A DNA stretch of 64,000 nt. Source: Candidatus Eiseniibacteriota bacterium. Its GTDB lineage: Bacteria; Orphanbacterota; Orphanbacteria; Orphanbacterales; Orphanbacteraceae. Below the pieces are notes generated by a model. It did no database searches, was not told the origin of the DNA, and saw nothing but the letters and a program-made list of their open reading frames with translations. A program made the translations under genes and the position numbers. This document shows, one piece after another, positions 4,493 to 55,345 of the stretch (positions are counted from its first letter, which is position 1; each line of letters starts with the position of its first letter). The DNA lies in NCBI GenBank assembly GCA_029262235.1, contig JAJCZU010000004.1, forward strand, positions 1,248,244 through 1,312,243, read 5' to 3'.

Positions 4493-5551
4493 TTATTGAG
4501 AGAGCCCGAGTCCGGGCACGTAATAGAGGCGGACCCCGAAGTGGTCCGCCGAATCGTTTGCGGTAGGAGAGGGAGAGCGGCCGTATTCGAACATGCCGCC
4601 GATGCCCCGGAAGATTTCGTGACCGATCCCGAACCCGAACGTGCCGCCTTCGCGACCGCCGAGCAGGATGTCGTCGTCTGACTGATAGCCGAACCTGATC
4701 GCCACCACACCGCTCACGCGAATCTCCGTCCCCACGGACCATCCCAGCCTGTCGACCGTTGTCGTGTTCTCGTCACCGCCGAGATCCACCGTGCGGTCGC
4801 GCAGCAGATTGTAAATGTCGGCCGCCAGCGTGATCGTGTTGTTGCGATCCTTCTCGTAACGCGACGAGTACCCGAACCGTGCGTACAGAGGTAGATCCGC
4901 CTCGCGATTGCCGATCATGAACGACGGCCCCAGATTCGCGACGGAAACGCCGACGCGTGACGTCACGGGCAGATCGCCGAGCGTGTGGCCCTGCTTGAAC
5001 AGCACGCCGAACGTGGCGGCGAAGGTCGCCTCCCCGTCGAGAGAATCGTGATCGGCGCTGTGCTGGTAGCTGATCCCCGTCACGCCCGCCGACCAGTTCG
5101 CCCCGATCTGCCTCGCGTACGAAAGCATCAACACCTTTTCGAGAATGTCGGTGCGGACCAGCGTGACTTCGTTTCCGTCAACGAACTGAAACTGACGGTC
5201 CCCTCCATCGCGCAGGATGACCGCGGCGCCCACCGTGTTGTTCTTCGAAAGCTTTGCGCTCGTCATGAACACGCGGTCGCGGCGCGAGTCCTGGAAGTCG
5301 TTCACTTCATCGTTCGGCGCTGCGTAAAACAGGTAACCCTTCGAGTAGGAGAGCCCCGCCGGATTGATCCAGACATTGGACGGTGTTCCGGGAATGGACC
5401 CCACGGCGTTCCCCATCCCCTGACCCATAGCGGTATACGACAGGAACGGATGAAGTGCGAGGTCGTTCTCTTCCGCGATCGCCCAGGCGGCGGGCGCAGC
5501 GACGAGAATTCCGAGTAGAAGAGATAAGATGGCAAACATCTTCCGGAACAT
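4493..5551 (-). CDS. PorV/PorQ-like outer-membrane beta-barrel protein
   Basis: About 352 residues. A signal peptide (FRKMFAILSLLLGILVAAPAAWA) precedes the PorV/UPF0164-type opening M-G-Q-G-M-G-N-A...N-V-W-I-N-P-A-G-L, then alternating beta strands with many Gly and aromatic residues, ending in ...YYVPGLGLSQ. PorV is the outer-membrane shuttle of the type IX secretion system and PorQ-like proteins are its relatives, which fits the FlgD/CTD-tailed secreted proteins in this window. The start is uncertain. The ATG at 5551 gives a normal signal peptide, but no Shine-Dalgarno is visible there, nor at ATG 5557 or TTG 5575. The gene diverges from dapF, whose start is only ~70 bp away. Confidence 0.75.
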   Translation of the reverse strand: MFRKMFAILSLLLGILVAAPAAWAIAEENDLALHPFLSYTAMGQGMGNAVGSIPGTPSNVWINPAGLSYSKGYLFYAAPNDEVNDFQDSRRDRVFMTSAKLSKNNTVGAAVILRDGGDRQFQFVDGNEVTLVRTDILEKVLMLSYARQIGANWSAGVTGISYQHSADHDSLDGEATFAATFGVLFKQGHTLGDLPVTSRVGVSVANLGPSFMIGNREADLPLYARFGYSSRYEKDRNNTITLAADIYNLLRDRTVDLGGDENTTTVDRLGWSVGTEIRVSGVVAIRFGYQSDDDILLGGREGGTFGFGIGHEIFRGIGGMFEYGRSPSPTANDSADHFGVRLYYVPGLGLSQ

Positions 5552-5587
5552 ACCCATGGAAATGAAACGTGTCAACCAGAGGGGCAG

Positions 5588-5616
5588 TTGTCGATTCGCC
5601 CCGATTCTCGTACGAT
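5588..5616 (+). promoter_or_regulatory. Promoter for dapF-like gene, probably leaderless
   Basis: TTGTCG (5588-5593), 17 bases, TACGAT (5611-5616). The -10 box ends only 8 bases before the ATG at 5625 and no Shine-Dalgarno is present, so the transcript probably starts at or next to the initiation codon. Confidence 0.5.
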
Positions 5617-5624
5617 CGCACTAA

Positions 5625-6476
5625 ATGAAGTGTGAAAAATGGCATGCCCTGGCGAACGACTTCCTGATCGCCGACCGGAGAGACGAGCGCGAGCGGAACC
5701 CGGCGCGCTTCGCGGCGCCCCTCTGCGACCGCCATCGCGGCGCCGGGGGCGACGGTTTTCTCGCGATCGAGCCGTCGGGTGACCACAGCGACGCAATGGT
5801 TTCGATCTGGAACGCCGACGGGAGCCGGGCCGAGATCAGCGGGAACGGGCTGCGGTGCGCCGCCGGTTTCCTGCTGCAGCACGGGGCCGTGGACCGCTGT
5901 TCGATCCGAACACAGGCCGGAGTCTCCGCACACAGGGTGATCGAACGCGCGCCGCCCGGTTTTCGGATCGAATCGCACTTTCCCGCCCCCTCGTTCGCCT
6001 CCCGGGTGATCGGGCTCGCGGAAAGCGTGCCGGAAGGGGAGCCGTTCGAGCGCTCCTGGAGCGGCGGGGTCGTCCGCGGCACGGCCGTGTCGGTCGGGAA
6101 CCCGCATTACGTCGTGTTCGAAGGATGGACCGAAGACAACTGGCGCGCGATCGGGGCCGAGCTCGAGAGCGATCCGTTCTTCCTGCATCGCGTGAACGTC
6201 GAATTCGCCCGCGTGATCGATCGCGCCGCGCTGCAGGTCTTCGTGTTCGAACGCGGCGTCGGGGAGACGGCGTCTTCGGGCACGGGCGCGTCGGCGTCGT
6301 TCGCGGCCGCGCGTCGCGCCGGCATGGTCGACCCTGCAATCGACGTGCGCCTCGCCGGCGGCACGTTATCTTTACGGGAAGAGCCCGAGGGCTTCTCGCT
6401 CACCGGATCGTGCGAACGAATCGGCGTTTTCGAAACCGACCCCTCATGGTGGGAGCGCATCAATGACTCCGAGTAA
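5625..6476 (+). CDS. dapF: Diaminopimelate epimerase-like protein, second catalytic Cys replaced by Ser
   Basis: 283 residues, normal for DapF, which interconverts LL- and meso-diaminopimelate for lysine and peptidoglycan synthesis. The first active-site motif N-A-D-G-S...S-G-N-G-L-R-C is intact, with Cys78. The second motif reads E-R-G-V-G-E-T-A-S-S-G-T-G-A, where DapF normally has A-C-G-T-G; the catalytic Cys (Cys217 in the Haemophilus enzyme) is therefore Ser218 here. The enzyme may work with a Cys/Ser pair, act on another substrate, or be impaired. The start at 5625 lacks a Shine-Dalgarno and fits a leaderless transcript. The 3' end overlaps the FG-GAP gene by 14 bp, so the two are probably co-transcribed with recG. 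Confidence 0.85.
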   Translation: MKCEKWHALANDFLIADRRDERERNPARFAAPLCDRHRGAGGDGFLAIEPSGDHSDAMVSIWNADGSRAEISGNGLRCAAGFLLQHGAVDRCSIRTQAGVSAHRVIERAPPGFRIESHFPAPSFASRVIGLAESVPEGEPFERSWSGGVVRGTAVSVGNPHYVVFEGWTEDNWRAIGAELESDPFFLHRVNVEFARVIDRAALQVFVFERGVGETASSGTGASASFAAARRAGMVDPAIDVRLAGGTLSLREEPEGFSLTGSCERIGVFETDPSWWERINDSE

Positions 6477-8097
6477 ACGTCACCCTCATCTGTTTCCCGC
6501 CCTATTCGCGGGCGTGCTTCTGGCGGGCTCCTTCCTGCCAGGCTTCTTCCTGGCAGGCATGGTGTTTCCGTGCGCGGCCGCGGCGCAAAACGATTCGCTC
6601 ACGCCGGAACCGGCCGAGCGCCCTTCGATGAACGTGCGGCGTCATCACGACGTGCGCTTTCTCGGCGCGGATCCGTGGGACGAACTCGGCGTGCAGGCGT
6701 GCTTCGCGGATCTGAACGGCGACGGCTTCGACGAAGTGATTCTGGGCGCATGGCTCGCAGACGGCCCGCGCAACGAGCGTTCGCGGGCGGGCGAAGTGTA
6801 CATCTTCTTCGGGCGCGCTCTCGAAGACTGGGAGCGGGGGACGCTCGACCCGTCCGTCATCTATGGAGGGCGCGCCGGGGACCGCATCGGATCGTCGCTC
6901 GACTCGGGCGACTTCAACGGCGACGGCATCCCGGACCTGCTGATCGGCGCGCGCTACGCCAACGGCCCGAGCGACTCGCTTCGCGCCCGATGCGGCGAAG
7001 CGTTTCTCGTGCTCGGCGGCTCGGCCGGGGAGCGTCACGAAGTCGTGGACCTGCGCGAGAAACCGGACATTCACATTATCGGGCTGGACGAGGGCGATCG
7101 CTTCGGGCGCAGAATCCACGTGCAGGATCTCGATCGCGACGGGCGGGAGGACCTGCTGATGGCGGCGATCGGATCGGACGGCCGGTACGACGAAGACGCG
7201 GACGCCGGCGCCGTTTACGTTCTCTACGGAAGGCCGCGTGATGATTTCGAGAAGGTGATCGATCTCGGCGATCGCGAACTTCCCGTGCTGCACGGGTCGG
7301 ACGAGTCGGACGGACTCGGCGGCGCGATGGCGACCGGCGACTGGGACGGCGACGGCCAGATCGACATCGTTCTCGGGTGCGGGTTCGCGGACGGTCCGGC
7401 GAACGGGCGAACGAATGCCGGCGAGGCCTATGTGCTGTTCGGTACGGGGAAACGTTTCGAGGGGGAGACGGTGCTTACCGAAGGCGGCGTGTTCACGATT
7501 TACGGCGCGGACTCCTACGACGGCGCGGGCATCGCGGTTGCGTGCGCCGACTTCGACGGTGACGGTGTCGACGACATCGCGCTCGGCGCGAACCTCGCCG
7601 ACGGCCCGAAGAACCATCGAGACAAGTGCGGCGAGGCGTACGTGTTACTCGGAAGCCCTTCGGTCAAGAGCGACAGGATCTTCGATCTCACGTACGCTCC
7701 GGATCTCACGATCTACGGTGCCCGCGAGGGCGATCAGTTCGGCGCCATCTTGAATCTGCAGGACTGGAACGACGACGGGTTCAGCGATCTTCTCGTGGCC
7801 TCCCTGCTCAGCGACGGTCCGGGCGCGCAGCGGGAGGACGCCGGCATGCTCTACGTGATCCTCGGCGCGGCGCAGACGGACCTCGAACCGCGCGTCGATC
7901 TGGCTACGGGCTCCGGCGACCTGTTCCTGCTCGGCCCTTCGGCGCAGGACAAGATTGCGACGGCTTTCACGATGGGCCGCATGGCGAATGAAGACGTGCT
8001 CTTCGCCGCCACGATGCTCGGGGACGGGCCGCACGATGAAAAGAACGATACCGGCGAGGTGTATGTCCTTCGATGGCGCGCTCTGACAGGACAATAG
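6463..8097 (+). CDS. Secreted FG-GAP (integrin-alpha-like) beta-propeller protein
   Basis: 544 residues with an N-terminal hydrophobic signal region (about 9-42, ending C-A-A-A-A-Q). At least six Ca-binding loops of the form D-x-N-G-D-G-x-x-D follow (for example DLNGDGFDE, DFNGDGIPD, DLDRDGRED, DWDGDGQID, DFDGDGVDD, DWNDDGFSD). Each is followed by an A-x-G-P-x-N-x-R-x-x-A-G-E-x-Y-V-L-F/L-G strand. This is the FG-GAP repeat pattern of a seven-bladed propeller, suggesting an extracellular binding or structural protein. It starts inside dapF and runs 25 bp into recG, so translation is probably coupled. The ligand is unknown. Confidence 0.8.
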   Translation: MTPSKRHPHLFPALFAGVLLAGSFLPGFFLAGMVFPCAAAAQNDSLTPEPAERPSMNVRRHHDVRFLGADPWDELGVQACFADLNGDGFDEVILGAWLADGPRNERSRAGEVYIFFGRALEDWERGTLDPSVIYGGRAGDRIGSSLDSGDFNGDGIPDLLIGARYANGPSDSLRARCGEAFLVLGGSAGERHEVVDLREKPDIHIIGLDEGDRFGRRIHVQDLDRDGREDLLMAAIGSDGRYDEDADAGAVYVLYGRPRDDFEKVIDLGDRELPVLHGSDESDGLGGAMATGDWDGDGQIDIVLGCGFADGPANGRTNAGEAYVLFGTGKRFEGETVLTEGGVFTIYGADSYDGAGIAVACADFDGDGVDDIALGANLADGPKNHRDKCGEAYVLLGSPSVKSDRIFDLTYAPDLTIYGAREGDQFGAILNLQDWNDDGFSDLLVASLLSDGPGAQREDAGMLYVILGAAQTDLEPRVDLATGSGDLFLLGPSAQDKIATAFTMGRMANEDVLFAATMLGDGPHDEKNDTGEVYVLRWRALTGQ

Positions 8098-45835: not shown

Positions 45836-46900
45836 TCAGTGGGAGTGCCCGGCCTGCGCCTGCGCGTGATGCCCGTTCTCGTGCGCCGGCTCATGCGCAT
45901 GAGCATGGCCGTGCCCGTGCGTATGGTCGGTCGCGCCGTGCGCATGCACCGCGGCGGGGAACACGGCCGCCCAGCGCGCGTCGATCGCGTCGGCACGGCG
46001 CTCGTAGTTACGCGCCGATCGTTCGTCTCCCGCCAGTTTCGACAGAGCCGCCAGGCGACGTTCCAGTTCGGGGCGTTCCCGCCCGCTCGTCGCCTCGCGC
46101 AGCAACGCAATCGCCTCGTGTTGTTCCCCGCGCGCCGCCAGAACTTCCGCCCGTTCGACGTCCGTGATCCACCAGTTCGGAAACGCGCGTTCCGCCGCCT
46201 CACAGAGTGCGAGCGCGGAATCCGTGTCCCCGCGCATGCGGGCATTCCTCGCGCGTTGCAGCAGGAGCCAGGCGGTCGGGTACGTGCGCCCGCCGTGATA
46301 GGCGAGGGACGCTTCCCGGTAGAGACGTTCGGCCTCGTCCCATCGCTCCGTGCGGGTCATGAGCATGGCAAGGCGTGCGACGCTCTTCATGTCCTTTCGA
46401 AGAAGGATCGACCGGCGATAAAGCTCTTCGGCAAGTACGAAGTCGCCCGCCTGCATGGCCACGTCGCCGCGAAGGCCCGCGATCGCCGCGCGTTCCCGCG
46501 TGTTCAGGAGCAGTTTCGTTTCGAAGGCCGCGAGATCGGCTTCGACTTCGTCGAACCGATGCATGGTGTAATGAAGCGCCGCGCGTGTCAGAAACGGACC
46601 CGCGCCCGCCGGCGCCAGCTCGAATGCCCTCACGAGGAGGGACTCCGCCGACGCGTAGTCGGCGAAGCCTCCCGTGAGTCGCGCCCGCTCCTCAAAAGCA
46701 ACCGATGCTTTCTCGTGATCCAGCGAGGAGCGAGGCGCAGTCTGAAGACGCTCTTCGATCGCAGCAATTTCGGCGTCGAGACGGGATACTTCGGTCTCAT
46801 ACCTCGGGAGCGAGGATACGCTCAAAGCGAAACTCGCTGTATCCGCCACGACAATCGATCCTGCCCCCGCGATCGCCCCTATAATTAAAAGCGTCTTCAT
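45836..46900 (-). CDS. Exported TPR protein with His-rich tail
   Basis: 354 residues. A signal peptide or N-terminal anchor (about 1-25) and a short coiled coil (E-T-E-V-S-R-L-D-A-E-I-A-A-I-E-E-R-L) precede five to six TPR-like units. The last ~39 residues contain 13 His in H-x-H runs with few other side chains, a likely Zn/Ni/Cu-binding or metal-buffering tail. AAGGAG lies eight bases before the ATG. It follows the two DUF4331 genes in the same direction with a 22 bp gap, so the three probably form one unit. The metal and the partner are not known. Confidence 0.8.
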   Translation of the reverse strand: MKTLLIIGAIAGAGSIVVADTASFALSVSSLPRYETEVSRLDAEIAAIEERLQTAPRSSLDHEKASVAFEERARLTGGFADYASAESLLVRAFELAPAGAGPFLTRAALHYTMHRFDEVEADLAAFETKLLLNTRERAAIAGLRGDVAMQAGDFVLAEELYRRSILLRKDMKSVARLAMLMTRTERWDEAERLYREASLAYHGGRTYPTAWLLLQRARNARMRGDTDSALALCEAAERAFPNWWITDVERAEVLAARGEQHEAIALLREATSGRERPELERRLAALSKLAGDERSARNYERRADAIDARWAAVFPAAVHAHGATDHTHGHGHAHAHEPAHENGHHAQAQAGHSH

Positions 46901-46922: not shown

Positions 46923-47507
46923 CTACGGCGTGTGCGGCGCGGCCAGGTACGGGAACGTGCCGGAGAACGCCTTGTCGTTTGCGGTGGGGTTCACGGGTAC
47001 GCCTGCCAGCGTGGCTGCCGTGTGCGGACCGGCGCTGTTCCCGAGATCGATATCAAGCAGCACGAGCGCCAGCGTCACGTCGATGACCGGGTCCGTAAGG
47101 CCGCGGCCGTTCGGGAAGCCGGCGGGTGCCGCCGTGTTGATCATGAGCACGTCGGGAACCACAAACGGCGCGGCCTGCGCCACCGCTTCCGCCGGCGTCG
47201 CCGGTGTGAGGCCGAGCCCGGCCAGGTCGTCGTCGAGCGCGTTATGCAGCCCGGTGACGTTCGCCGTGATCTCGCCGACCCAGTTGCCCGCGACATCCCC
47301 GGCCGGCGTGTCGCTGTTGTACATGTCCTTGCTCGTGATGACCGCGGTCGCGATCGCGGGCATCCCCATGCGGTCGACTTTCGTGAAGGTTTCCATCGTC
47401 GGCTGCATGCCGTTGTTGTTGTCATTGTTGTCGTCCCCGCAACCCGCGGCGACGAGCATGCATCCGGCCAGGGCCGCAAGCAGCGTGTTTCTCGTCAAGC
47501 GTTTCAT
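46923..47507 (-). CDS. Lipoprotein with DUF4331 C-terminal half
   Basis: 194 residues. A lipoprotein-type signal (L-L-A-A-L-A-G-C-M-L-V-A-A-G-C) precedes an Asp/Asn linker (D-D-N-N-D-N-N-N). The rest matches the C-terminal half of DUF4331 proteins: D-R-M-G-M-P-A-I-A-T-A, P-D-V-L-M-I-N-T-A-A-P-A-G-F-P-N-G-R-G-L-T-D-P-V-I-D, and the closing F-P-Y-L-A-A-P-H. The N-terminal half of that family is the gene immediately upstream, so one DUF4331 protein is carried as two polypeptides. The start is 2 bp after the upstream stop; AAAGGA precedes it. Function unknown. Confidence 0.78.
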   Translation of the reverse strand: MKRLTRNTLLAALAGCMLVAAGCGDDNNDNNNGMQPTMETFTKVDRMGMPAIATAVITSKDMYNSDTPAGDVAGNWVGEITANVTGLHNALDDDLAGLGLTPATPAEAVAQAAPFVVPDVLMINTAAPAGFPNGRGLTDPVIDVTLALVLLDIDLGNSAGPHTAATLAGVPVNPTANDKAFSGTFPYLAAPHTP

Positions 47508-47509
47508 GG

Positions 47510-48154
47510 TCAGCTGTCCTTTCTCGAAGTCGTCGCCCAGATGTAGAGGTTCGATCCGCCGCCTGCCGCGCTCGAAAGGTCCATTTCGAGAACGATGGCC
47601 GTGCAGTTCAGGCCGGCGACCGAGTCGCGCGTCGAGTCGAACATGAGCGTGCCGGTCGCGAGCGTGTTGTTGAACCCTTCGAGGTCGAAGAAGAAGGGAT
47701 CGTCGCGGAGGCCGGCGTAAAGCTGCACTCCCTGATCGCTGATGACGGTGCCGACGGCCCCTGTCACGTCGCCGGTAGTGCCGGGCACGTTGCTCGCGGT
47801 CACGGTCCAGTTGCCGTTCACTTTCGCGAAACGGACACCGATCTTGACGTCCGCCTCGTACGTGGCCGGGAAGCCACCGCCGTCGCGCCCGATGCGTACT
47901 TCATAAAGCACGTCTTCGTCGTACGCGCCGTCCTGCCCTGCGACCGGCGCCCGGAGCCCCGCAAACGTGATCGCCGCAACGAGCCGCCCGGCATCGTGCC
48001 ACGCGTAAACGTCCGCGATGTCCGCGGCAGGATCCGCCTGCGTCCCCGGCGCTTCCATGTGATCCGCGGCACGCGTGAGCCCCGGCATTCCCGCGAGCAG
48101 CGCGAGCGTGACTGCTGTCAGAAGCTTCGTGCTTCTGCTTCGATTCTGTTTCAT
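47510..48154 (-). CDS. Secreted DUF4331 N-terminal half
   Basis: 214 residues. After a signal peptide (K-L-L-T-A-V-T-L-A-L-L-A-G-M-P-G-L-T-R-A) the mature protein starts A-D-H-M-E-A-P-G-T-Q-A-D-P-A-A-D-I-A-D-V-Y-A-W, the hallmark opening of DUF4331. It continues through F-A-G-L-R-A-P...F-A-G-L-R-D-D-P-F-F-F-D-L-E-G-F and ends before the C-terminal half, which is encoded separately downstream. GAGGAGG lies five bases before the ATG at 48154. The two products probably assemble outside the cytoplasm; because only the second is lipidated, it may anchor the first. Confidence 0.8.
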   Translation of the reverse strand: MKQNRSRSTKLLTAVTLALLAGMPGLTRAADHMEAPGTQADPAADIADVYAWHDAGRLVAAITFAGLRAPVAGQDGAYDEDVLYEVRIGRDGGGFPATYEADVKIGVRFAKVNGNWTVTASNVPGTTGDVTGAVGTVISDQGVQLYAGLRDDPFFFDLEGFNNTLATGTLMFDSTRDSVAGLNCTAIVLEMDLSSAAGGGSNLYIWATTSRKDS

Positions 48155-48410
48155 TCCAAGCCTCCTCTGTTTTGCTGGATCGAATCGACTGTTCACATGG
48201 ATTACGCCGCGGCCCCCCGGGGTGGATGAGCCAATCGAGAACAATGTTGGTCGTTTCTTGCAGGATCTTGCGCGCCGTGACTCGAAAACCGGGAGCGATC
48301 CACGATTTGAACCCAGACGCGGTTCGAGACCGCGTACAATTATGAAAGGAACACGAGCGGAAGCTGGACGGCGGTCGCTCCGCATTGCCTTTCACGCCGG
48401 CGGAACCAGG

Positions 48411-50567
48411 GTGTCTTTGCGAGAACAGTGGAAACTCTCATTCGCAGCCGTGCTGATCGCAGCGGCGGCTTCGCTGTGGGCGGGTTGTTCCGCGTCGGGC
48501 GGTCCCGATCGTGCCTCCCGACCGGCACCGCCGGCGTCCGAAGACAGCGCTTCCGTAACGCTGGACGGTACGGACTGGACCCTGGTGCGCGCGTGGGATT
48601 TCGCTCATGGACTCTTCCCCGGCGGGTGGGGATGGGGCACCTGGGAGATCCGCAACAAGACGCTGCAGGGCGAGAGCCGCGACGACGATTTCTCCGTCTA
48701 TTTCTTTCCTGTCGTGCACGGGGATGACGCTCTTCTCGAGACGAAAGTACGGTTCGAGAGCAGCGTTCCCGGGCACCGCGTGGAAGCGCAGCTGCTGACG
48801 CGGGACCAGGAATCCATTTGCCACGAAAGCGGACTCGTTCTCTTCGCCGATCGCGACAGCGTCGACGTGCGGCACATGGCCCACGCGCACGACTACGTCC
48901 GCGAAGGCGTTCCGCTGACGACCCGTGTGACGTACGGCGAGTGGCACGTCATGCGCTTCCTGATGCGCGGCGGAGAGATTCACGCGTACATCGACGACGA
49001 GCACGTGTATTCGTCCGTCGCCTCGGCCGGCCGCGACGAAGCCGATCCTGAGCTCCGCGCGCTCGGCGGCGTCTTTCCTGTCGGCATCTATGACGAGCCT
49101 CACCTCGCGGTCAAGTGGGGCACCGCTTCGTTCGAGTACGTGAAGTTGTATCTTGCCGGGGCCGAGGGGACGGCTGTCGCGTCGAACACAGGCGCGCGTC
49201 GCGAACACGCCCGCTCGCTCTCCACGTTCCGTGTCGACCGCAGGCACTGGGCGATCACGCTCATGCTGTACCTGTTCTATGCCGTCATCTTCATCGTCTG
49301 CATCTATCTCGTCCGCCATTACGTTTTCACGGTGAATCGTCTGTTCGGGCGGCAGCGGCAGCCGTACATCGATATCGACACGGCCGACTGGCCGCAGGTG
49401 ACCATCGTGATCCCCGCGCATGACGAGGAAGTCGTGATCAGCGAGATTCTCGAGGCGCTGCTCGACGTCGATTATCCGCTGGATCGCATGACGATCATGC
49501 CCGTCAACGACCGTTCGAAAGACAGGACGGGCGAGATCATCGACGAAATCGCCGCGCGGCATCCGAACACGATCGAGCCGTATCATCGCACGCGCGGCAG
49601 CGGGGGGAAGGCGGCCGCGCTCAAAGACGCCACCGCGCGCGTAAGGACCGAGATCATGCTCGTGTTCGACGCGGATTACATTCCGGGGCGCGGGCTCATC
49701 AAGCAGCTGGTGGCGCCGTTCTTCGATCCCGAAGTGGGCGCCGTGATGGGGCGCGTGGTCCCGTACAACGTCGACAGCAATCTGCTGACGCGTCTGCTCG
49801 ATCTCGAACGCGCCGGCGGATACCAGGTGGACCAGCAGGCGCGCATGAACATGAAGCTCGTGCCGCAGTACGGCGGAACCGTCGGCGGCGTCCGGCGCAC
49901 CGCGCTCGAAAGCGTCGGCGGCTGGCAGACCGACTCGCTCGCGGAAGACACCGACGCGACGTACCGGCTCCTGCTTTCCGGATGGAAGACCGTGTATCAG
50001 AACCGGTCCGAGTGCTACGAGCAGGTGCCCGAGACATGGGCTTCGCGACTGCGCCAGATCACGCGATGGGCCAAAGGGCACAACCAGGTAACGAATCGTT
50101 ATACGTGGGCGCTCATTCGCAATCGCCGCACGAGCCTTGTCGAAAAGATCGACGGCCTCCTGCTGCTCGGCGTGTACGTGATGTCGCCCGTGCTGCTGTT
50201 CGGCTGGACGCTCGGCATCATTCTCTGGTATCTGGGCGAACCGCGGTCGGGGCTGATCATTCTGCTTGCCGTTACCGCTTACAGCACGCTCGGGAACTTC
50301 GCCGTGTTCTTCGAAATCACAGCGGCAACCTATCTCGACGGTACGCGTCTGCGGATCCGGCTCCTTCCGTTCGTGTTCCTGGGATTCCTCGTAAGCCTGC
50401 TTTCGATCACGCGCGCCACGTTCGTTGAAGTCACCATGAACGGGAACGGGAAGAACGGGGCGAAGCGCAAGGTCGTGTGGGACAAAACCGAACGAAGCAA
50501 CAGTTTCAACGGACACACGAACGGCCAGAACGGTTATCACTTTCATACCGCGCGGAACGAAGAATGA
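48411..50567 (+). CDS. Membrane GT2 polysaccharide synthase fused to an N-terminal lectin-like domain
   Basis: 718 residues from the GTG at 48411; an ATG at 48342 is the alternative, with a long basic lead. A signal segment ends in W-A-G-C (Cys26), a poor lipobox, so lipidation is uncertain. Residues ~45-265 look like an extracytoplasmic LamG/concanavalin-type beta-sandwich (W-G-W-G-T-W-E-I-R-N...V-K-L-Y-L). One membrane helix (~285-310) leads to a cytosolic processive GT2 core: V-I-P-A-H-D-E-E, V-F-D-A-D-Y-I, A-E-D-T-D-A-T-Y and Q-I-T-R-W. Three or more further helices follow, as in BcsA, HasA and PgaC synthases. First gene of the second exopolysaccharide operon; ATGA overlap to the next gene. 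Confidence 0.85.
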   Translation: MSLREQWKLSFAAVLIAAAASLWAGCSASGGPDRASRPAPPASEDSASVTLDGTDWTLVRAWDFAHGLFPGGWGWGTWEIRNKTLQGESRDDDFSVYFFPVVHGDDALLETKVRFESSVPGHRVEAQLLTRDQESICHESGLVLFADRDSVDVRHMAHAHDYVREGVPLTTRVTYGEWHVMRFLMRGGEIHAYIDDEHVYSSVASAGRDEADPELRALGGVFPVGIYDEPHLAVKWGTASFEYVKLYLAGAEGTAVASNTGARREHARSLSTFRVDRRHWAITLMLYLFYAVIFIVCIYLVRHYVFTVNRLFGRQRQPYIDIDTADWPQVTIVIPAHDEEVVISEILEALLDVDYPLDRMTIMPVNDRSKDRTGEIIDEIAARHPNTIEPYHRTRGSGGKAAALKDATARVRTEIMLVFDADYIPGRGLIKQLVAPFFDPEVGAVMGRVVPYNVDSNLLTRLLDLERAGGYQVDQQARMNMKLVPQYGGTVGGVRRTALESVGGWQTDSLAEDTDATYRLLLSGWKTVYQNRSECYEQVPETWASRLRQITRWAKGHNQVTNRYTWALIRNRRTSLVEKIDGLLLLGVYVMSPVLLFGWTLGIILWYLGEPRSGLIILLAVTAYSTLGNFAVFFEITAATYLDGTRLRIRLLPFVFLGFLVSLLSITRATFVEVTMNGNGKNGAKRKVVWDKTERSNSFNGHTNGQNGYHFHTARNEE

Positions 50568-51739
50568 GCTTCGCGATTGCCATTATCATATTTTTCGGTT
50601 TCGTGCTCGGGCTTGCCGTGCTGCCGTTCGTTCCGGCTGTGGCCGAATGGCGTCAGAAGACTGATGCCGAGCCGCTCTCTGTTGCGTACCGGTCCGAAGT
50701 CGACGTGCGCCACCTGGCGAAGGGGTTCAGGAAGTACGTGGCGGCTCATCTGGGCAAGCACCTCGAGCAATGTCGCGCGAGCGGTGCTGCGGAGCGGGGC
50801 ACACTCGAAGACGGCACGCCGTTTCTCGTCGCGCCTGATCACGAACAGGACATTCTGCTGCCCGAGGAAATCCGGGATGGCGCCGCGCACCGACTGGTTC
50901 TGGCGTGCGGCGATCTGAAGCTCCCGGGTGAGACGATGTTCCTGCCTGAAGTGTTTGCCGAAGGTTCGATCGTCGGCGGGGAGAACAACATCTATCGCGC
51001 CATGCTGGCGGGAAGCGATATCACACTCGGGCGCGGCAGCACGCTGCTTCGCTGGGTGCATGCGCGCGCCATACGCGTGCACGCGGACGGCGTTCTGTTC
51101 GGGCGCGCTTCGGCCGACGAGTCGATCGTGCTCGAAGCCGGATGTCGTTTCCAGAGACTGCACGCGCCTCGCCTCGCGTTCGGCGAGACACCAGGTACGT
51201 GCGACTCTGCCGGCGACGAACCGCGGGGCGTCTTCGACGGTCTCGAGCTGGCGCCGGACGACGTTCCGAACACGGTTGATGTGAAAGCGGGAAGATGGCT
51301 CGTGGACGGCGATCTGGAAATCCCGGCCGGAAAAACGGTGAAAGCCGATCTCGTGGTAACAGGGGGGATCGAAATACGCAAGGGCGCCCGTGTCGACGGG
51401 GCGATCAAGAGCCACAAGGACATTCGAATTGCGGAGGGCGCTGTGATCAACGGCAGCGTGATCAGCGGGCGCGATCTCGTTGTCGAACGCAGGAGTCGCA
51501 TCTACGGCCCCGTCCTCGCCGATCGCAGCATCGCGTGCGGGGAAGGCGTCGTTCTCGGCACGGCGGCGAAGCCGACCAGTGTGAGCGCGGAAGAGATCAC
51601 GGTCGTGCGGGGCACGGTCGCGCACGGCACGGTATGGGCACACAGGAACGGCCGTGTTCTGGACTCCGCCGACACGCCCGACACCGTCCCGAACGGCTCG
51701 CGGGATCAGGGACGCCATCACAAACGGGCGGAAGCGTAG
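50564..51739 (+). CDS. Membrane-anchored bactofilin-like polymer-forming protein
   Basis: 391 residues. One N-terminal membrane helix (about 3-25) is followed by beta-solenoid-like repeats. The stretch V-V-T-G-G-I-E-I-R-K-G-A-R-V-D-G-A-I-K-S-H-K (~265-345) is typical of the bactofilin/polymer-forming domain, in which short Gly/Val-rich coils stack into a filament. Unlike classical bactofilins it has a membrane anchor and a long N-terminal extension with Cys residues. It overlaps the GT2 stop by ATGA, so it is translated with the synthase and may position it or form a scaffold for export. Confidence 0.78.
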   Translation: MSFAIAIIIFFGFVLGLAVLPFVPAVAEWRQKTDAEPLSVAYRSEVDVRHLAKGFRKYVAAHLGKHLEQCRASGAAERGTLEDGTPFLVAPDHEQDILLPEEIRDGAAHRLVLACGDLKLPGETMFLPEVFAEGSIVGGENNIYRAMLAGSDITLGRGSTLLRWVHARAIRVHADGVLFGRASADESIVLEAGCRFQRLHAPRLAFGETPGTCDSAGDEPRGVFDGLELAPDDVPNTVDVKAGRWLVDGDLEIPAGKTVKADLVVTGGIEIRKGARVDGAIKSHKDIRIAEGAVINGSVISGRDLVVERRSRIYGPVLADRSIACGEGVVLGTAAKPTSVSAEEITVVRGTVAHGTVWAHRNGRVLDSADTPDTVPNGSRDQGRHHKRAEA

Positions 51740-51742
51740 ACG

Positions 51743-52621
51743 ATGCCGAACACGAACTTCTACAAGGTGTACCGCCACCCGGGCAGAACCGATCCGAAGC
51801 TTCGCAAGTGGCTGGAGGATCTGAGCCGGCGCGGGTTCCGGGGCGGAACGATTCTGAACCATCGCGCCATGCTGACATCGCGTCACGGCCGGGCGAAGAT
51901 TCTGTCGTCGTCCGCGCTCTCCATACTGCTTCTTTTCGGATGGCTGTCATCCGTCAGCGTGGTGAGCGGCGTATGGGCCCGCATGCTGTCGTTCTGGAAC
52001 GAAGTCCTCGGAATCGGCGGGTACGTCACGCAGATCCACTATCAGATCGGCGGCTTTTACCATTTCCGCGCGCCGTACTTTCATGTCTCGTCGGCAACAC
52101 CGGACGATCTGGTGATCATGATCGGCTGGGTGGTGACGGCGATTTTCTTCGTCGCGTCGTTTCTCATTCCGCGCATGCATCTGCCGCTGATTTATGTCGT
52201 GCGCGTCGTGCTGTTCTTTCAATTGTGCGCGCAGGTGTTCTTCACGTTCGTGCCGCTCCGGTTCCCGTACGGCGCGGCCGGGTATGTGCACGGGCTCTTG
52301 ATCGCGGGTCTCGGCCTGATCGCGCTCGTTCCGATTCTGCTCGGATTCACGTACTTCATTTTCGACTTCAGTCTTCTGCGAAAAGTCGGCCTGGCGCTGC
52401 TCATCATCCTGTACATGGCGCTGTTCATACCGCTGCAGTTCGCGGCGCACGCGTTCATTCTGCATCATGCATCGCTGCTCGTACTGCCGCTTCTCTTCTT
52501 CGTATTCGGACTGCCGTTCAATGTGATGACGTTTATCGCGCTGTATTCATGGGGCGCGAGCTGGAAGAACGAACTGTACGAACGGGATGTTCCGCGGAAG
52601 GTGAGGCGCCATGTACGCTAG
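51743..52621 (+). CDS. Polytopic membrane protein of the exopolysaccharide operon
   Basis: 292 residues. A basic cytoplasmic N terminus (R-H-P-G-R-T-D-P-K-L-R-K-W-L) precedes six to seven membrane helices with aromatic-rich loops (Y-H-F-R-A-P-Y-F-H). No glycosyltransferase, acyltransferase or transporter motif is recognised. It lies 3 bp after the bactofilin-like gene and overlaps the YaiO-like gene by 11 bp, so it belongs to the synthase operon. It may be a permease partner or a conduit for the GT2 product; this is inferred from position only. Confidence 0.75.
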   Translation: MPNTNFYKVYRHPGRTDPKLRKWLEDLSRRGFRGGTILNHRAMLTSRHGRAKILSSSALSILLLFGWLSSVSVVSGVWARMLSFWNEVLGIGGYVTQIHYQIGGFYHFRAPYFHVSSATPDDLVIMIGWVVTAIFFVASFLIPRMHLPLIYVVRVVLFFQLCAQVFFTFVPLRFPYGAAGYVHGLLIAGLGLIALVPILLGFTYFIFDFSLLRKVGLALLIILYMALFIPLQFAAHAFILHHASLLVLPLLFFVFGLPFNVMTFIALYSWGASWKNELYERDVPRKVRRHVR

Positions 52622-53429
52622 AAACGGCAGGCGCGCTCTTCGTGCGACTCTCCGCGCGACTCTCCTGATGGCGGTCTTGTGCGGCGCGGCCGGACTCGGC
52701 TCGCGCGCGGCCGCGGATCCGCTCGTCTACTCGATCGAGGGGGGCGGTTCGTATACGCATTTCACGGAAGACTACGGCAGCGGCAACACGCAGTTCGCGG
52801 CATTCACACTGACGAGACCGTCCCGGTACGCGATCAGGATCGACGCGGGAAGGGCCGAACGGTTCGATGACGACGGTTACGGAATCGGCGCACTTCTCAC
52901 AAAGTATCTCGCGCGTAACTGGAGCGCCGGCGTGGGAGCCGGCACGGGAACGGGGGACTTCATTCACCCTGAGTACCGCCTGGACGCTTTCGTAAGTAAA
53001 GGGCTTCTCGCGAACGGCAACCTGATTGCCACGCTCGGCTATGCGCACGAAGAGAGCAAGGCCGCGAACTACTACGACAGGGTTGCCGGCTCGCTGACCT
53101 GGTGGGCCGACGCGCACTGGATCTTCGGCGGGTTCTATCATTACGACATCGGATATCCGGGCGACACGCGAACGAAATCCGGCGGCGCGGGGATCACGTG
53201 GTACGACTGGCAGGAGCGTTCGCTCAGCGTGTCGGGTTCACTGGGCGACGTGAACTACACGCAGGTCGGCCCGACATCCTTCCTCGTCGGCTATGAAGAA
53301 GTGTCGGTATCCCTCGGCGTTACGGAGTACCTGAGCTCACGTGGGGGACTTCGGTTGAAGCTCGACTGGGGCAGCAACGACTTCTACGATGCCTACGGAG
53401 TCACGGTCAGTCTGTTCAGGGAGAGGTAG
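52611..53429 (+). CDS. YaiO-family outer-membrane beta-barrel protein
   Basis: 272 residues. A signal peptide (L-R-A-T-L-L-M-A-V-L-C-G-A-A-G-L-G-S-R-A-A-A) is followed by about twelve amphipathic strands rich in Tyr, Gly and Asp. The opening Y-S-I-E-G-G-G-S-Y-T-H-F and later W-W-A-D-A-H-W-I-F-G-G-F-Y are typical of YaiO outer-membrane proteins. In E. coli yaiO lies next to the GT2 gene yaiP, and here it follows a GT2 synthase. It may be the outer-membrane port for the exopolysaccharide. It overlaps the previous gene by 11 bp, and the GT-C gene follows after 5 bp. Confidence 0.8.
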   Translation: MYARNGRRALRATLRATLLMAVLCGAAGLGSRAAADPLVYSIEGGGSYTHFTEDYGSGNTQFAAFTLTRPSRYAIRIDAGRAERFDDDGYGIGALLTKYLARNWSAGVGAGTGTGDFIHPEYRLDAFVSKGLLANGNLIATLGYAHEESKAANYYDRVAGSLTWWADAHWIFGGFYHYDIGYPGDTRTKSGGAGITWYDWQERSLSVSGSLGDVNYTQVGPTSFLVGYEEVSVSLGVTEYLSSRGGLRLKLDWGSNDFYDAYGVTVSLFRER

Positions 53430-53434
53430 GCGCA

Positions 53435-55345
53435 TTGCTTCCGGACTCGTTACAGAATCACGATCATGAGAAGGGCGCCGATCACGCGCTCGCGGCGTTC
53501 GCGGGCGTTGTCGTCCTCCTCGCCCTTGTCCAGGTACTGACGATTTCCGTTTCGCTTGCGGGGCTCACTCTCGCCGGGCCCCTTGCCGTCGTGGTTCTCG
53601 TGGTCGCGCTCGGCGCGGCAGGCATGGTTGCATGGCGATACGCGCGTTCCGAAAGCGCGGCGGGAACAAGGCGTCCGGATCCCGCGCCCAGAAGCGATCG
53701 CAATGCGCTTACGATGCTGGGGACGCTGGCCGCCGCCGCCGCGGTCGCCTGGTTCGTCTGGGTCTGGGGGCAGCTGTGGCTTCTGGCCGGCGCGCGGCCG
53801 CCGTACGACTGGGACGGACTCTACTATCATCTGCCCGCCATTCACGAATGGGTCGCGAACGGGCGCATCGCGTTTATCGGCAACACCCCCGACATTCCGT
53901 TCGTCAACTTTCCGATGGGAGTGGAGCTGACCTCTTACTTCGTGCATCAATTGACGGGCACGAGCCGTTTCGTGAACGCGTGCAATCTCTGGTACTGGCC
54001 GCTCGCGTTTCTGTCGCTCGTCGTGATTGCGACGCGCCTCGGTGCCCGCGGCGCCTGGCGATGGGCGGCCGGTGCACTGCTCTTCGGCGCGCCGGTCTTC
54101 GTCTCCCAGAGCGTGACCTGCTACATCGATCCGGGGTTTGCGAGCGCGGTGATGGCCGCGATCGCGGCTTCGTGTGTGTTCGTGTTCGATCGGGACAGGG
54201 AACGTGCCCGGAACGCGCTGCTTCTCGGCGCCGCTGTGGGGCTCGTGCTGGGGAGCAAGGGCACAGGCGCGCCGTTTGCGGGCGTGATTCTCGTCGCGGT
54301 CACGGCCGCGGCCCTGGCTCGAGGCGGCTTCGGGGGCGCGGGCAGAGTTCTCGCGTCCGCGGCGCTCACGCTCCTGGTCGCGTTTCTCGTCGGCGGATAC
54401 TGGTATGCGCGCAACGCGTACCACACGGGGAACCCGATCCATCCGATTCAAATCGAATTCGGACAGAAAGTATTAATCGAGGGGTATGATCCGGCGCTGT
54501 TTCTCTCGGCGAATCTCCCGACGTGGCTCGCGCCGTATCCCGCCTGGGCGCGGATGTTCGTGGCATGGTTTCAGCCCGACGCGCCCGTGTCGGGGTACGC
54601 GCCGGTCGGAGGCATGGGGTATATCTGGCTCGCGGCCGCGTTGCCGGCGCTCTTCTATCTGTTCGTTCTTGCTGCGCGCCGGCGTTATCCCGGCCCTGCC
54701 CGCGAGTTTCTGTTCGTGTCATTTCTGGCGCTCATTCTGTTCGCCGTGCAGCCCGCGAGCTGGTGGTCGCGTCTCACGATCTGGTTTCTCGCGATCGGAC
54801 TCCCGTGCATCGCCGTGGCGGCCTCGCACGCGGCTTCGACCTGGCGGGCGACTCCGCTGCGATCGATCGTGCTCGGCTGGGCGATCGGATCGATCGCGCT
54901 CGCGGTCTGGGAATCGAACGGGACGCTGCAGCTCGAGCGGGCGACCGGGCGGACGGTTGCGGACACGCGTTCGCAGGCCACGTACATGTCGAGTCTCGAC
55001 TACATACTTCCGGGAATGGCCGCGGCGCCCGGCTTCGAGGAATTCTTCCGCGCCCGCAGGATCGCGCGCAGCCCCTGGGAGCGGATCGGCACACTGCTCG
55101 GGGGCGTACTCGCCATGCCGCTCGACGCCAGAGAGATCACCGTACTGCCTCTCTATCCGGAGGAGGCCGACGTGGACGCGCTCGCGGACGCCGGCGTCGA
55201 ATGGATCATCTGGGACGTGCTCGGATCGGGAGAAGCGCCCGCTGTCATCACGAGCGCGGCCGATCGCCATCACGTCTTCCATCCCGCGCCGGACGTGAAC
55301 TTCCACATATTCCGCCTCGAGAGCACCGCACGCGCCCGGCATTGA
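53435..55345 (+). CDS. GT-C-type membrane glycosyltransferase
   Basis: 636 residues with at least ten membrane helices. The large first external loop holds P-P-Y-D-W-D-G-L-Y-Y-H-L-P-A-I-H-E-W, an acidic active-site motif of GT39/GT83 (ArnT/PMT-like) enzymes that use a polyprenyl-phosphate sugar. Loop residues G-N-P-I-H-P-I-Q-I-E and a C-terminal soluble domain (~520-636) support the family. It would add sugars on the outer face, decorating lipid-linked glycan, lipid A-like acceptors or protein. The start is a TTG at 53435 with AGGGAGAGG upstream. It is the last gene of the exopolysaccharide operon. Confidence 0.8.
   Translation: MLPDSLQNHDHEKGADHALAAFAGVVVLLALVQVLTISVSLAGLTLAGPLAVVVLVVALGAAGMVAWRYARSESAAGTRRPDPAPRSDRNALTMLGTLAAAAAVAWFVWVWGQLWLLAGARPPYDWDGLYYHLPAIHEWVANGRIAFIGNTPDIPFVNFPMGVELTSYFVHQLTGTSRFVNACNLWYWPLAFLSLVVIATRLGARGAWRWAAGALLFGAPVFVSQSVTCYIDPGFASAVMAAIAASCVFVFDRDRERARNALLLGAAVGLVLGSKGTGAPFAGVILVAVTAAALARGGFGGAGRVLASAALTLLVAFLVGGYWYARNAYHTGNPIHPIQIEFGQKVLIEGYDPALFLSANLPTWLAPYPAWARMFVAWFQPDAPVSGYAPVGGMGYIWLAAALPALFYLFVLAARRRYPGPAREFLFVSFLALILFAVQPASWWSRLTIWFLAIGLPCIAVAASHAASTWRATPLRSIVLGWAIGSIALAVWESNGTLQLERATGRTVADTRSQATYMSSLDYILPGMAAAPGFEEFFRARRIARSPWERIGTLLGGVLAMPLDAREITVLPLYPEEADVDALADAGVEWIIWDVLGSGEAPAVITSAADRHHVFHPAPDVNFHIFRLESTARARH

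Follow-up and report, generated by a model that had tools for sequence, protein, structure and literature searches.

The window analysed here, a stretch of 64,000 nucleotides, carries on its forward strand a GT2 synthase gene followed by genes for a bactofilin-fold protein, a polytopic protein and a YaiO-family barrel (Table 1). A first-pass annotation had described these four genes, and all of them were found at that place, in that order and on that strand. It overlooked a fifth gene, which begins five bases after the YaiO gene and encodes a putative GT-C glycosyltransferase. The GT2 frame opens upstream of 48411, where a GTG is a plausible start, and the bactofilin-fold gene starts with the ATG at 50564, overlapping the GT2 stop. 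The G+C content of the unit is 62.5%, the same as in its surroundings, and no sigma-70-type promoter was seen.

Two further features were noticed beside the unit on the reverse strand. DUF4331 is divided between two exported proteins encoded side by side in frame; both have a signal sequence of their own, and the start of the second resembles that of a lipoprotein. Downstream of this pair a TPR protein is encoded whose tail is very rich in histidine (HAHGATDHTHGHGHAHAHE...) and may bind metal.

Table 1. Features of the window and of the other loci mentioned in the text.
Feature	Sequence	Position	Strand	Evidence
GT2 synthase, 718 aa	window	48411-50567	+	Pfam GT2, motifs, core superposition
GT2 parts, in order: N-terminal membrane segment or lipoprotein-like signal; predicted concanavalin / 3-keto-disaccharide-hydrolase-like domain (residues ~50-250, extracytoplasmic); membrane segment 282-300; cytoplasmic GT2 core; at least 3 more membrane helices	window			
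Bactofilin-fold protein, 391 aa	window	50564-51739	+	Pfam Bactofilin, structure model
Polytopic inner-membrane protein, 292 aa, ~6 predicted segments, unnamed family	window	51743-52621	+	
YaiO-family outer-membrane beta-barrel, 272 aa	window	52611-53429	+	TIGR04390
Fifth gene: polytopic protein, 636 aa, putative GT-C glycosyltransferase	window	53435-55345	+	motif YDWDGLYYHLPAIHEW only
DUF4331 protein pair	window	46923-48385	-	
TPR protein, histidine-rich tail	window	45836-46900	-	
Ordinary small bactofilin	L001, window genome	1465-1920		
Ordinary small bactofilin	L002, window genome	1462-1875	-	
Unit in broken pieces	L038	3954-7803		
Polytopic-YaiO single frame	L070	9069-10757		
Polytopic-YaiO single frame	L073	8495-10309	-	
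Polytopic-YaiO single frame	L074	8880-10784		
yaiX, IS2-interrupted	L075, E. coli K-12	4845-6873		
yaiX, intact	L077, E. coli RM10042	2356-2937		

Synthase and envelope proteins

The synthase matches Pfam GT2 families (E 2.6e-32) and carries D367, DAD at 420-422, AED at 511-513 and QITRW at 549-553, residues which are invariant or near-invariant over the rows of the GT2 alignment. The best single fold match of the modelled core is the archaeal mannosyltransferase PcManGT (Z 31.5); the core also superposes on BcsA (Z about 24-26) and on hyaluronan synthases (Z about 22-24). A part list for synthase-dependent exopolysaccharide systems was taken from PMC7112194, and by its motifs and the modelled fold (Z 22-26 to BcsA and hyaluronan synthases) the protein qualifies as the inner-membrane processive GT2 synthase of that list. 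The proposal of a processive enzyme, which absence of these motifs would have undone, is thereby upheld. The best NCBIfam match is PgaC (TIGR03937), at 134 bits far below the equivalog cut-off of 422, and the BcsA equivalog TIGR03030 gave 82 bits for a cut-off of 699; alignment to PgaC by hhalign reached 99.8%.

The N-terminal domain of the synthase lies between the first hydrophobic segment and the segment leading into the GT core, which places it outside the cytoplasm. The structure model is unreliable in this part (pLDDT about 30), and Pfam scans of seven homologues were used in its place. PF06439 was matched by three of the seven (best E 1e-9) and a concanavalin-like family by two. It is these matches, not the model, that bear out the extracytoplasmic beta-sandwich proposed before the membrane core; they indicate a domain of the concanavalin type, which may bind or hydrolyse. 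Among the loci seen, the domain is fused to GT2 in the window, L061 and L065 only, and is encoded as a separate gene in L004, L063, L070 and L072, so the fusion was rejected as a defining trait and is a sporadic variant. As the window protein is nearest to L004 and L005 in the GT2 tree, not to L061 or L065, fusion or splitting must have occurred more than once.

No Pfam or NCBIfam family matches the polytopic protein, and its profile gave only 0.1% with E. coli PgaD in hhalign, by which it is not related to PgaD. The fifth-gene protein is likewise free of Pfam, NCBIfam and PDB sequence matches, its GT-C profile giving chance matches only against PDB. Assignment of the barrel to the YaiO family is clear from TIGR04390 (E 2.3e-18, 67 bits, cut-off 32) and PF19413 (40.7, cut-off 23.9). 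The proposed YaiO-type outer-membrane port thus holds as regards the barrel, whereas its service in export is something that we infer.

Three genomes encode the polytopic protein and YaiO in a single open reading frame (L070, L073 and L074), a segment resembling a signal peptide being retained between the two parts. Signal peptidase may cut the product, or else it is a genuine fusion from inner to outer membrane.

The bactofilin-fold protein

The window protein scores 31.6-31.9 bits with Pfam Bactofilin (PF04519, cut-off 27.9); the family is matched at E 0.01 or better in 7 of 12 members, several relatives staying under the cut-off. Structure prediction, which had been suggested as a check, gave a model with a pLDDT of 85, consisting of an N-out membrane helix (2-31), a helix at 50-73 and right-handed beta-helix stretches at 111-206 and 237-366, with the bactofilin domain at 249-348. 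In this predicted model residues 249-348 fit the Thermus bactofilin 6ria over 89 of 90 residues at 1.7 A (Z 8.0), which corresponds to the right-handed triangular beta-helix of bactofilins. Foldseek returned no match under E 0.001 for the model, the bactofilin match coming from a second aligner. The protein from L009 has a signal peptide and a proline-rich linker ahead of the usual membrane helix, and those from L062 and L068 have similar signal-like N-termini. A signal peptide followed by a second helix puts the beta-helix in the cytoplasm.

Polymerisation of C. crescentus BacA is abolished by mutation of F130, the phenylalanine of the C-to-C interface (PMC12448750). We assigned the corresponding position by alignment with the two canonical bactofilins of the window genome, and every copy covering the region has Ala, Ile, Val, Met, Thr or Cys there in place of the conserved phenylalanine. 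Furthermore, another beta-helical part lies ahead of the bactofilin domain. Given the replacement, filaments are doubtful, and the protein more probably serves as a scaffold or in clustering. What remains of the bactofilin-like membrane polymer proposed earlier is therefore a membrane-anchored bactofilin fold whose polymerisation is doubtful. N-terminal membrane helices occur in about 3% of bactofilins (PMC12448750). Two ordinary small bactofilins are encoded elsewhere in the genome, which makes the synthase-linked copy an additional, specialised form.

Distribution and gene order

A search for the shared gene order was carried out across genomes. The same five genes, in window order, were found in a Latescibacterota MAG (L004, whose GT2 shares 71% identity over 420 columns) and in another MAG, from an uncultured organism (L005). 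Profile matches to the polytopic protein occurred in 8 of 386 diverse genomes, 18 of 80 Latescibacterota and further genomes in other phyla, and the unit was absent from all six other genomes of the window's phylum. That the unit is scattered over phyla yet missing from near relatives points to horizontal transfer or to repeated loss.

Thirty loci were compared. GT2 is adjacent in 29 and the bactofilin-fold gene is there in 28, which is wherever the contig allows, and YaiO was found in 23, being missing for example from L020, L038 and L065. The polytopic gene adjoins GT2 in every locus with enough sequence, and the trio of GT2, bactofilin-fold and polytopic genes is complete in 28 of 28 such loci. 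Pairwise distances of these three proteins and YaiO correlate at 0.68-0.87. A chance neighbourhood is rejected by this comparison, and the single conserved unit that had been proposed stands, except that its count of four genes was too low, the fifth being conserved too.

The GT2 tree splits into 11 and 18 sequences with 100/100 support for each side, and we call these type I and type II, a division also missed by the first-pass annotation. Type I, comprising the window and Latescibacterota, has the order [UDP-GlcNAc 2-epimerase]-[concanavalin domain]-GT2-bactofilin-fold-polytopic-YaiO-GT-C. Type II is found in several other lineages and in Latescibacterota too, with the order polytopic-GT2-bactofilin-fold-deacetylase-(hydrolase-like)-YaiO, except that YaiO comes first in one lineage and the order is rearranged in L020. 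The type II deacetylase gives weak NodB-family matches with conserved His/Asp motifs, and a search of the window genome (G000) with its profile found none. No database match was obtained for the hydrolase-like family, whose GH8-like label was given by eye only; searched against PDB sequences, its profile and those of the deacetylase and the polytopic protein had no hits. In L038 (G589, of the G084 family; a single contig of 1,855,560 bases) the unit is present in broken pieces only, namely a short polytopic frame, a short bactofilin-fold frame and split deacetylase frames.

Another link overlooked before is that to a non-hydrolysing UDP-GlcNAc 2-epimerase (WecB equivalog, 359-471 bits), encoded within the unit or next to it in L004, L018, L061, L065 and L071; in L061 the epimerase gene overlaps the next start. 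This suggests a supply of UDP-ManNAc, and the sequence data thus hint at a polymer containing ManNAc. The window unit has no epimerase alongside, two copies being encoded elsewhere in the genome.

Proposed working and known systems

We consider it likely that these genes form a synthase-dependent system for an extracellular polysaccharide, and no description of its type was found in the searched literature. Searches on bactofilin with YaiO, with EPS synthase or with gene cluster returned none, and neither YaiO nor bactofilin appears in the main text of a large EPS operon survey (PMC7112194). The reading draws on the 30 loci, which fall into two types that differ in gene set and form fully supported GT2 clades, on the GT2 motifs and BcsA/HAS-like core, the deacetylase and hydrolase-like genes of type II and the linked WecB, and on the 6ria fit, the cytoplasmic beta-helix and the polytopic-YaiO fusions. 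Counting against it are PcManGT as top fold match, the missing phenylalanine, the loci without YaiO, the lack of an epimerase beside the window unit and, by the profile search, of a type II deacetylase in the window genome.

In such a system the substrate of GT2 would be an activated N-acetylhexosamine (probably UDP-ManNAc, alone or in a mixture), polymerised at the cytoplasmic face, and the chain would cross the membrane through the enzyme's own helices. The synthase's constant partner in the inner membrane would be the polytopic protein. With a single N-out helix as its anchor, the bactofilin-fold protein may hold its cytoplasmic beta-helix against the synthase, serving to scaffold or cluster it. 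Outside the membrane the concanavalin-like domain may bind or trim the emerging chain, which YaiO would serve at the outer membrane. Modification could be by GT-C decoration in type I, and by the deacetylase and hydrolase-like protein in type II. More tentatively, and with rather low confidence, the membrane-anchored scaffold may be an obligatory part of a widespread synthase, assembling it together with YaiO and the polytopic protein at a fixed site for export across the envelope. This would add another export machine to the pores of the Bcs/Pga/Alg/Pel type and to Wzx/Wzy.

Other readings were weighed for both the synthase and the beta-helix protein. The preference for PcManGT, the PgaC score far under its cut-off (134 of 422 bits) and the small size of the YaiO barrel would all suit a non-processive GT2 making a glycolipid or other envelope glycoconjugate, with YaiO and the bactofilin-fold protein serving envelope assembly, but the QxxRW motif in a BcsA-like core and the linked type II deacetylase and hydrolase-like genes make this unlikely. 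The bactofilin-fold protein could also truly polymerise and align synthases, with an effect comparable to the cortical belt of Gluconacetobacter. A right-handed bactofilin domain, a membrane anchor with cytoplasmic topology and the constant linkage to the synthase agree with this, yet the replaced phenylalanine (F130 in BacA, PMC12448750) in all copies covering the region and the additional beta-helical part ahead of the domain leave such filaments possible but doubtful.

The least probable reading, which we regard as very unlikely, is a divergent acyltransferase that modifies the polymer or a precursor of it, a role that YaiX may have in E. coli. The bactofilin-fold gene does sit where the E. 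coli locus has its hexapeptide gene, between those for GT2 and YaiO, hhalign to YaiX gave 85% probability, and weak hexapeptide matches were seen in 3 of 12 members. Left-handed acyltransferase helices, however, superpose on the model at only about 11 A compared with 1.7 A for bactofilin, and a left-handed identity was rejected on this superposition.

With an extracellular polysaccharide system as the preferred reading, an unnamed synthase system gains a clear list of parts, two variants and a hint of its substrate, and an orphan YaiO barrel and an orphan polytopic family gain a testable context. Until now the bactofilin fold was associated with cell shape, stalks, DNA organisation and motility. 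Its constant presence in these operons of distant bacteria now ties it to polysaccharide synthesis and, if it clusters synthases without filaments, it would be a fold reused as a non-polymerising membrane scaffold. With bactofilins (PF04519) the window protein shares the right-handed triangular beta-helix domain, and it differs from them in its 391 aa, its second beta-helical part, the missing polymerisation phenylalanine and the link to a synthase.

The ydaJKLMN operon of B. subtilis combines a GT2 with deacetylase-like and GH8-like proteins, as in type II, and includes the c-di-GMP receptor YdaK; it is not known to contain a bactofilin-fold or YaiO part. A c-di-GMP-binding subunit also figures in the part list of PMC7112194; neither PilZ nor GGDEF was matched by the five proteins of the unit (Pfam, NCBIfam). 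The E. coli yaiS-yaiP-yaiX-yaiO locus, which together with Pga comes nearest in logic, likewise lines up genes for GT2, a deacetylase, a YaiO barrel and a protein with a beta-helix, the last between GT2 and YaiO. That protein, YaiX, is of the left-handed hexapeptide kind (Hexapep 1.6e-18), whereas the unit has a bactofilin-type right-handed helix between GT2 and YaiO; YaiS is a PIG-L deacetylase, no polytopic homologue is annotated there and YaiP is only a distant relative. The beta-helix gene yaiX, flanked by yaiP and yaiO, carries an IS2 insertion in E. coli K-12 but is intact in RM10042 and, as annotated, in several other strains.

Pga resembles the unit in its processive GT2 and, for type II, in the deacetylase, hydrolase-like proteins and outer-membrane barrel. 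The unit has neither PgaD nor a PgaA-type TPR porin (Pfam found no TPR domain, which the part list couples to an outer-membrane pore, though the YaiO barrel is present), bactofilin-fold and polytopic core subunits taking their place, and the type II deacetylase is not fused to a hydrolase. Candidates for the periplasmic modification enzymes on that list are the deacetylase and hydrolase-like genes in type II and the concanavalin-like domain only in the window. The claim that the system is unlike Bcs or Pga survives the comparisons with BcsA, PgaC and PgaD, but it overstated the distance from Pga, to which type II, with its deacetylase and often a hydrolase-like protein, is logically close. Compared with Bcs, the unit has no BcsB and no PilZ domain was found (Pfam, NCBIfam), whereas the BcsA-like synthase fold is shared. 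In Gluconacetobacter cellulose synthesis a cytoplasmic structure, the cortical belt, whose components are unnamed in the paper, is thought to align the synthases (PMC7811197), and a cytoplasmic structure beneath the synthase is the analogous idea in the unit described here.
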